DNA of 64,000 nt from Chlorella sorokiniana (Eukaryota; Chlorophyta; Trebouxiophyceae; Chlorellales; Chlorellaceae), in contig CP084617.1 of assembly GCA_025917655.1 (NCBI GenBank), positions 124,001 through 188,000 on the forward strand, in the 5' to 3' direction. Below, one piece after another: positions 15,511 to 18,500 of this stretch. Positions within the stretch are counted from its first letter, which is position 1. Each line of letters opens with the position of its first letter. Both the position numbers and the translations under genes were made by a program. Below the pieces are notes generated by a model. The model was not told where the DNA came from. It saw only the letters and a list, made by a program, of their open reading frames with translations, and searched no databases.

Positions 15511-18500
15511 TCACGCCACGGTGGCGGCAACGGAGCGGAAGTCGGTGCGGGCGGCGCCCGCGCCCACACCCGTGCTGTCGCCGTCGCCGCCGACGGAGAT
15601 GTCGACGGGCGGCCGCATGGCGGCGCAGGCCGCCAGCGCCGCGTGCACGGGGTGGCTCTTGAAGGCCTGCAGGGGGGGGGGAAAGGGGGAGAGATTGGCG
15701 GGGTGGAGGGCGAGGGGGTCAACAGGGGGGGGGGCATGTGTACGGTACTGTGTGTTCTGTGTGTTGCTACTTCTACAAGCAGCAGCAGCAACCACCAAAA
15801 GAGCCAAGCACCGCCCCGTCGCCGCCCGCCCACCTGGATGGTCTCGGGGTCTGCCTCCTTGCCGCCGTCCACAGCCACGTACGCCTGCTGGTCCAGGACG
15901 TAGTCGAAGCTGGCGCGGGGGGGCGCGCACAGTACAAGGTCGGTAAACATCATGCAGCACCCCCTCTTGTGTGTGCATACGCACCACCCACCTGCCACCG
16001 AAATCCCCCTTGCTGCCGCCACAGCGACCAAGCCTCGCTCCCCGCCTCGCCCCTTCACCACAAGATTCAATCAACATTTCGATCAACGAGTGCTCCCATC
16101 CCCGCTTGCACTCACCGCGGGGCCCACTTGCGGGAGCCGAGGCGGGCGGTGTAGGAGCAGTTGTCGACCATGAAGGCGACGCCGCGGGCGTGCATGTAGG
16201 GGTTGAGGGAGTCCACGGCCTCGATGATGGACTGCGGGTGGGGGTAGAAGAAGGGGTAGTGTGTGTGTGGGGGGGGGGGGGGGGGGGGCAAAAGCAGGGA
16301 GGCGCCAGGCAGCGATGGGAGCGATTAAATAGGCGGGGGATGTGGGGCGGGAGCCCATTGCACCCCGCCCCCCCGCAGCGGCTGGAAAGCAGGCAGACAC
16401 AAGCACAGCGGTCGTGGAAACGTGGAAACGAGAGCAGAGGAGCGCAAGGGCGGCACAGGAGGAAGAGGCGGCTCCCCACCTCGTTGCAGATCTCGGAGAA
16501 GGGGTGCCCCTTCTCCAGCAGCGTCTGCACGGTGGCCATCATGGTGGCGATGTACACGCCTGCGGTACGGATGCGGTGCGGAGTGAAGGGAGGGAGGCAC
16601 AGTGAGGCGGCGCGTGCAACACAACGGAGATGAGAGCCGCGAGGGTCAGGCAGGGCAGGGCTCGGGTGACAACACGGCTGCGAGGCGACGGCAGGCTGCG
16701 AGCTTGCAGCAAGCGTCCGGCCAGAGCACGCTCACAACGCTCGGCGGCGGCGTGGGGGCGTGGGGGGGCGGCGCGTGTGTGTGGGGGCGGGCGCATCACT
16801 GCGTTCAACACTCCGTTCAGCAGTGCTCACCCGCGGTGAAGGGGTTAAGCGGGATCTCGTCCTCTTTGCGCGCCGCCCGCACAGCCTGGCCCACCTGCGC
16901 AGCTCATGGCAGACGGGGGGGGCAGGAGGGTCGAGGGGCGCAGCCTGCTACTGCGTCGTGGATCGCCCGGCAGCCTGGCCCGCCCTAGCGCCTGAAAGCT
17001 GCACGCGCGCTGCGGAGCGCTCCGAAAATGCGCCAGCCGCCGCCCAAACCGCCAAGGCAGACACGCGGCCACGGGCGCAGGTGCCCGCCCACCTTCCACA
17101 TGTGGGTCTGGTCGATCTTGCCCATGGGCCAGCGGTCGAAGCGGGAGACGGCGTTGACGACAGACTTGATCTCGTTGCCGCAGGCCACATCCTCGTAGAT
17201 CTGTTTGAATAGCAAGGGGCGAGGGCAAGCGGAGTTCGGAAACGTTGGAAAAGAAGGACAACCAGGGGTTGAAAGAAAAAACAAGGCCCAAGGCAGGGTG
17301 CACGGACAGCCGCGGGCCAGAATGCAGCGTGTGGGCGCCCTGCCGGGTTGGCTGCGTGCATGGCGTGCATGTGAGGCGCGCGTGCGAGCACAGAGCGGCA
17401 AGTGCACCGTGGCACATGCACCGGCACATGCCCAGCAAGGAGGAAAAGTGCAGCACAGCGCAGCGCAGCGCAGCGTGCACCTCGTAGCAGATGTCCATGG
17501 CGGGGCCAAAGGCGGCGGAGTAGGCCTGCTCAAACACCTTCTTGTCGGCGTCGTTGAACTGGGGGCAACAGGAGGGGGGTTGTGTTTATATTGTGGGGGT
17601 TTATTGTGTGTGTGTGTTTTTGGGGGAGTGGGAGGTCAAGACGGGCACCGCGGTGCTGGGCAGAGGTCTCGCAGCAGCGACGAGGGTGGAAGGGGAGGCT
17701 GGGGCGGGGGCTACGAAAACAAGCCCCCTGGCCGAGCGGTGTGGTGGGCGCCTGGGCTGCCAGCGCCCGCGCCCAGCAGCCGCGGCCTGCTGCCGCCTGT
17801 ACTGCCTTGTACTGCCTGCCTGTACCGCACCTGCTCGTACACGCCCAGCATGCCGTCGCGGGAGATGATGCGGGTGATGGGGCCGGTGATCGACTCCACA
17901 GACTGCTTGAAGGCATCCTCGTCGCTGCGGGGCAGAAGGAAGCAGTCCACATCGATCAGAAAACAAGCGGACAGTGGACATGTTGATTGTGTTGGGGCGG
18001 GGTAGGAGGTTTCCAGCGACCGGTGGCACAGCATTGGGCGAGGAGCGGCGGCAGAGAGGGAGGTTGTATGGGGGGGGAGGGCGGGAGGCACGGGCAGCCG
18101 CTGCGCGCGCCGCCGCCGCGGACCTCATGCCGTTGCGGGTGTAGCGGCGGAACAGCGACTCCACCACGCCGTGCACGCCGCCCAGGATCACGCAGCGCCG
18201 CCGTAAATGTCGCTGCGGGCGGGCGGCGGCGGCGGCAGCGGCGGCGGGTTGAGTGGGCAGCCCAGGGGGGCACTGACCTCAGGCCCTGCCGCACAAAGCG
18301 GCGGAAGAGCGACTCCACAATGCCGTGCACAGCGCCTAGCAGCACCGCACGCTCGCCGTAAATGTCGCTGCAGCGGCGCTCGGCACAGCCGGCATGACGT
18401 GCAGGGGGCAGGCACGGCGGGCAGGCACCCGGCCACGGCAACCCTGCCAACCCCCCAAAGCAGCGGCAGGGCACCACGCCCTAAGCTGCGAACGCCGGGC

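Follow-up and report, generated by a model that had tools for sequence, protein, structure and literature searches.

Introduction

The exclusion of exons in the alpha-tropomyosin gene is reportedly enforced by an unusual location of the branch point, as attributed to Smith and Nadal-Ginard (1989). In the vertebrate 2-oxoglutarate dehydrogenase (OGDH) gene, branch points that lie 25-41 nt from the donor, i.e. within a threshold of about 50 nt, are described in passages of PMC7969005 as enforcing the exclusive use of exons 4a and 4b. For Volvox carteri cyn23, passages of PMC4378016 give exons 4 and 5 as 106 nt each, the isoforms differing at 13 residues and both having been amplified by RT-PCR. 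In ketol-acid reductoisomerase (KARI), the Mg ions are coordinated by Asp315, Glu319 and Glu496, as stated in excerpts of PMC11264209 and PMC13430628. Two native substrates are described for the enzyme in excerpts of the KARI literature. A search of open-licence papers, judged by their titles, returned no title on KARI splicing or on mutually exclusive exons in this gene.

In the following, a duplicated exon of the KARI gene of Chlorella sorokiniana is described, which lies in a window of 64,000 nt (the whole stretch of DNA analysed; contig C12, positions 124001-188000). The two copies, 7A and 7B, may be spliced in a mutually exclusive manner through steric block, giving two KARI isoforms, a reading that is given about an even chance of being correct.

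The KARI gene and its exon model

The gene and those of its parts that matter here are, in coordinates of the window:

15511..20672, minus strand: KARI (ketol-acid reductoisomerase, plant type) gene, 15 exons plus 7B, modelled by reading splice sites and frame
19385..19617, minus strand: exon 4, constitutive, with a single-base frame break that is undone by exon 6
18561..18659, minus strand: exon 6, constitutive, ending in phase 2, with a single-base frame break
18278..18367, minus strand: exon 7A, 90 nt, phase 2-2, frame intact, carrying the Asp315/Glu319 motif (spinach numbering)
18213..18277, minus strand: intron between 7A and 7B, 65 nt, whose adenines, those of the splice sites apart, are at positions 24, 28 and 29
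18124..18212, minus strand: exon 7B, 89 nt, diverged copy with one base missing in the Glu319 codon
17831..17924, minus strand: exon 8, constitutive, joining 7A or 7B in phase 2

The product of exons 7A-15 matches KARI of rice (3fr7; E 5.8e-103) and of spinach (1qmg/1yve; E 1.8e-101) over its whole 261 aa, and a profile search places a PF07991 match within 18191-20167 of the gene. A family search of the assembly (38,804,885 bases in 15 contigs) yielded a single match over the cut-off for PF01450, and all 10 of the 10 KARI protein matches in the assembly fall inside this one gene, so that one KARI locus was found. No second KARI gene was found, the only other DNA match (contig C7) covering the GCC-rich intron and not the exons. 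By its Asp315/Glu319 motif and full-length similarity the 7A form is a plant-type KARI; in the 7B form the Asp is present and the Glu is unreadable.

Pfam searches of 20 further open reading frames of the window assigned a family to three. A BTB domain (30905-31381) and a BACK domain of the BPM/SPOP type (30043-30669), both on the minus strand, probably belong to one gene (30043-31381), and a match to the mechanosensitive ion channel beta-domain is found at 9912-10805 on the plus strand (E 0.00016).

Anatomy and divergence of the exon pair

The pair had been noticed in a sequence-only reading, and its coordinates, the lengths of 90 and 89 nt, the gap of 65 bases, the 2-2 phase and the AG/GT donors were all confirmed. 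Thus, 7A and 7B are adjacent homologous exons of one gene, and their phase fits both the end of exon 6 and the start of exon 8. As assembled, 7B is not readable in frame, and the pair is not filed as an established mutually exclusive one because 7B has 89 nt. Both copies start with CGACATTTACGGCG, and they differ at 21 of the 89 aligned bases, besides the one gap in 7B. The earlier count of 21 shared residues of 29 included the Glu, which the fifth codon of 7B, being of two letters only, does not spell; of the 28 codons that can be read in both copies, 20 encode the same residue, and the eight differences (7A/7B) are A/C, L/I, A/G, I/V, F/Y, V/T, Q/N and L/M. Likewise, the common acceptor context then noted holds for the junction itself, gcag followed by CGACAT in both, but not upstream of it, where the 7A acceptor ranks low (2/90) and that of 7B middling (29/90).

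Both strands of the window were scanned against themselves for same-strand pairs of 24-aa segments, 80-600 nt apart and with at least 16 identities, low complexity being removed. The scan returned the 7A/7B pair and one tandem array at 28088-28534 (reported once per strand), which consists of 13.1 copies of a 34-bp unit with 93% matches. In six second-order Markov controls, made from the minus strand only, no pair was found, and chance similarity or a low-complexity repeat is ruled out as the source of the pair by the scan and its controls. Assembly duplication is ruled out as the source of 7B by the 21 differing bases.

Comparison with other KARIs

Algal relatives were sought in genome contigs, where all 32 KARI loci found came from bacterial records, and in viral contigs, where eight pattern matches included no relative and no KARI. 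The comparison set holds 31 sequences, namely rice, spinach and 29 of the 32 bacterial loci, three (L032, L039 and L043) being left out as they do not carry the motif pattern. This pattern fixes or limits residues 1-7 of the segment, and free comparison applies to positions 8-30 only. The 7A stretch aligns without gaps to rice and spinach KARI and starts at Asp315 in spinach numbering, as counted from the DIFGER motif.

Leu323 and Ala326 are invariant in 31 of 31 comparison sequences and are kept by 7A, whereas 7B has Ile and Gly, respectively. On sequence grounds 7A is thus close to the standard KARI form and 7B alters two otherwise fixed positions. In the KARI literature examined, a structural role for Leu323 was not found. 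At positions 338, 339 and 343 (Tyr, Thr and Met) it is 7B that agrees with rice and spinach and 7A that does not. From the changes of 7B at the fixed sites and the departures of 7A at these three it follows that neither of the two simply descends from the other. Position 322 is Val in both copies but Ile in 31 of 31 comparison sequences, which points to gene conversion or to a duplication that took place within this lineage.

The missing base in 7B

The 7B codon that corresponds to Glu319 is one base short, leaving GG, so that Glu at this place is assumed rather than read. It had been proposed that either exon joins its neighbours in frame; as assembled this is false, and inclusion of 7B would bring in a TGA eight codons on from the split Ser, although the lesion may be an artefact, given that breaks occur elsewhere too. 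Indeed, exons 4 and 6 of KARI carry frame breaks by opposite single bases, the true frame being confirmed by the GC content of third codon positions, and three single-base breaks were found in HSP70 genes (L046, L047 and L051), each at a run of G or C. As such breaks sit in conserved constitutive exons, the assembly carries indel errors, and other one-base breaks in this genome need care; the frame-break scan also pointed to an odd place at C1 881450-881515.

Since constitutive exons of KARI and HSP70 show similar breaks, an assembly error is a plausible cause of the break in 7B. The frequency of breaks is 3 in 23,331 nt of matched HSP70 and Cpn60/TCP1 (CCT) coding sequence, under a rule that considered only matches with close profile ends, and 2 in 1,689 nt of KARI. 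At these rates an error within the 89 nt of 7B is possible, not expected.

That 7B cannot be read through as assembled, and that it changes Leu323 and Ala326, are among the points that stand against the use of both exons as alternatives. They lend weight to a history in which 7B served as an alternative exon through most of its existence and was broken recently in this strain, leaving the enzyme to be made from 7A only and 7B as a relic of recent date. The missing base lies outside any obvious homopolymer, errors elsewhere are as sparse as indicated above, and 7A is intact where 7B departs from the fixed residues. On the other hand, 7B has no other lesion in its 89 nt, its third positions are GC-rich as in constitutive exons, and the breaks in constitutive exons of the same gene cannot all be real if the gene works. 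This history is rather unlikely, though to be taken seriously.

The identity of the lost base also matters. A lost A restores Glu, but the error would then be unlike the other five (KARI exons 4 and 6 and the three in HSP70), all of which are at G or C runs; a lost G is of the fitting type, and the ligand is then gone. The remaining GG is compatible with Gly, Ala, Val, Arg and Trp no less than with Glu. Because the loss of a G from a GGG run matches the kind of error seen elsewhere in the assembly, 7B might be a real exon of 90 nt whose broken codon is not Glu, in which case the splice choice would replace a standard subunit by one with an altered Mg site, and the alga would mix both kinds of KARI subunit from the one gene, tuning its branched-chain amino-acid synthesis, all of which is judged improbable.

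Coding constraint on 7B

The sequence-only reading had taken 7B as kept by selection rather than decayed, a view that gains support from the third codon positions and from simulation. GC is found at 29 of 30 third positions in 7B and at 492 of 534 in the other 14 exons (445 of 474 without exon 1), the introns having a GC content of 68%. A binomial comparison of 7B with intron GC gives 0.00017, but this value takes no account of common descent and is not relied on. In 7A, whose protein sequence is conserved, the count of 24 of 30 is below that of the other exons (p 0.034 when all 14 are taken; with nine of the 14 only, at 318 of 332, p was 0.003), perhaps as the result of splicing signals at silent sites.

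A dead copy was simulated from a guessed ancestor with 15 changes, and it matched 7B jointly on three measures (no more amino-acid changes than 7B, freedom from stops, and no more A/T at third positions) in 0.385% of 20,000 runs. The single measures are weak, being reached in 17.5%, 81.6% and 10.4% of the runs, respectively. With 7A as the starting point and all 21 changes placed on one branch, 0 of 20,000 runs matched. The dN/dS ratio between the copies is 0.46 on 28 codons, which is not low, and 17 of the 21 substitutions fall in the eight amino-acid-changing codons. Taken together, the evidence that 7B was long in service as an exon is fair, not strong.

The frame break, the dN/dS value and the high divergence concentrated in those eight codons would suit an early death of the copy, shortly after the duplication and with no period of use as an exon. 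The joint simulation argues against this course of events, as do the third positions and the splice sites that persist at both ends of 7B, and an early death of 7B is accordingly held to be improbable as well.

Splice sites

Splice sites are still present at both ends of 7B and the flanks are GT-AG. Position +3 of the donor is C in 7A and in 7B, as it is in 2 of 90 donors elsewhere, of which 83 have G. Together with that of exon 6, these two donors are the three lowest-scoring of the 15 KARI donors, by a score that is biased as the matrices were built without the 7A and 7B sites, lowering their scores. The acceptor of 7A is weak (rank 2/90), but those of KARI exons 3, 10 and 14 also rank 2/90.

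The weakish donors of both exons and the early TGA in the assembled 7B would be in keeping with a poison exon, i.e. a missing base that is real and kept, with inclusion of 7B leading to decay of the transcript and the splice choice setting the amount of KARI. Such a device needs neither amino-acid nor codon-usage constraint, whereas 7B shows both, and it is very improbable.

The 65-nt intron and steric exclusion

Reference introns were taken from 18 HSP70 and CCT loci, in which 92 were estimated, 91 tried and 90 solved; of the 76 Cpn60/TCP1 rows, all but 2 entered the intron and frame-break set. All 90 are at least 80 nt long, the one of 80 scoring poorly and being perhaps no intron, and the next has 98 nt. 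The other 14 KARI introns measure 121-391 nt, and none of these 104 introns is as short as the 65-nt gap. The distance from donor to adenine and the branch sites were analysed in 101 of these (87 of the 90 solved introns and the 14 of KARI), three being dropped as shorter than 98 nt or without a GT donor. In the stretch free of AG before the 7B acceptor, adenines occur only at positions 24, 28 and 29 of the 65-nt intron, i.e. at most 29 nt from the 7A donor, and the largest available distance is at least 63 nt in the 101 other introns. In the reference introns, CTNAY sites are most frequent 30-49 nt before the acceptor. CTCAAC, which lies 36-37 nt before the acceptor in the 65-nt intron and matches at four of five positions, is a candidate branch site; YTNAY is absent from the branch window in 54 of the 101 introns. 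Whichever adenine serves, the predicted distance from donor to branch point is at most 29 nt, well under the steric criterion of about 50 nt, a threshold that comes from animals. The earlier surmise that the gap may be too short to splice gains support from both intron lengths and donor-to-adenine distances. With regard to exclusion of the Dscam type, by competing pairing between selector and docking sequences, folding covered the 65-nt intron only; all of 200 shuffled versions folded better (z +2.31), which speaks against a structure within this intron as the cause.

Splicing of 7A and 7B together into a KARI with a 30-residue tandem repeat, which the GT-AG ends of both introns and the frame-keeping lengths (if 7B has 90 nt) would permit, is extremely unlikely, as no other intron among the 105 seen is as short as that of 65 nt, which leaves at most 29 nt from donor to any usable adenine, and as the metal-binding core would then contain the ligand segment twice.

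In the preferred reading, i.e. mutually exclusive splicing of the two copies, a tandem duplication of KARI exon 7 would have led to two homologous exons. With no more than 29 nt between the 7A donor and the usable branch adenines of 7B, U1 bound at the donor and U2 bound at the branch point would be too close to assemble together, preventing the joining of 7A to 7B. Exon 6 would then join one or the other, and either, with the missing base restored to 7B, would join exon 8 in phase. The two predicted enzyme forms would differ at eight residues (nine if the unreadable codon differs), located on and after the Mg-ligand stretch. Should both exons be used, the second enzyme of the branched-chain amino-acid pathway would be made from one gene in two versions that differ next to the catalytic Mg site. 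A switch between them could bear on the balance between valine/leucine and isoleucine, KARI having two substrates. If 7B is instead broken, the locus would offer a dated example of the loss of an alternative exon.

Comparison with known systems

The arrangement described here would represent a known kind of splicing in an apparently new gene, an assignment that is provisional as 7B is unreadable in the assembly. KARI of rice and spinach is the same enzyme with a single sequence for this stretch, and has Leu323 and Ala326 as 7A does and 7B does not. Volvox carteri cyn23 offers a parallel from a green alga, with two mutually exclusive exons that are equally long, but it encodes a cyclophilin-related protein, according to passages of PMC4378016. 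As far as the OGDH account in passages of PMC7969005 goes, exons 4a and 4b share with 7A and 7B the duplication in a metabolic enzyme, the exclusive use that is proposed for 7A and 7B, the bearing on metal binding and a branch point, predicted in KARI, close to the donor. That case differs in being demonstrated by experiment, in introns of 118-131 nt (birds and mammals) with distant branch points, and in concerning regulation by Ca2+. The KARI pair, in contrast, is known from genomic sequence and has a 65-nt intron, a predicted branch-to-acceptor distance of the ordinary kind and a catalytic Mg site. The alpha-tropomyosin gene is, unlike KARI, an animal muscle gene, and mutually exclusive use of 7A and 7B, if true, would carry the steric rule of tropomyosin and OGDH to an algal gene.
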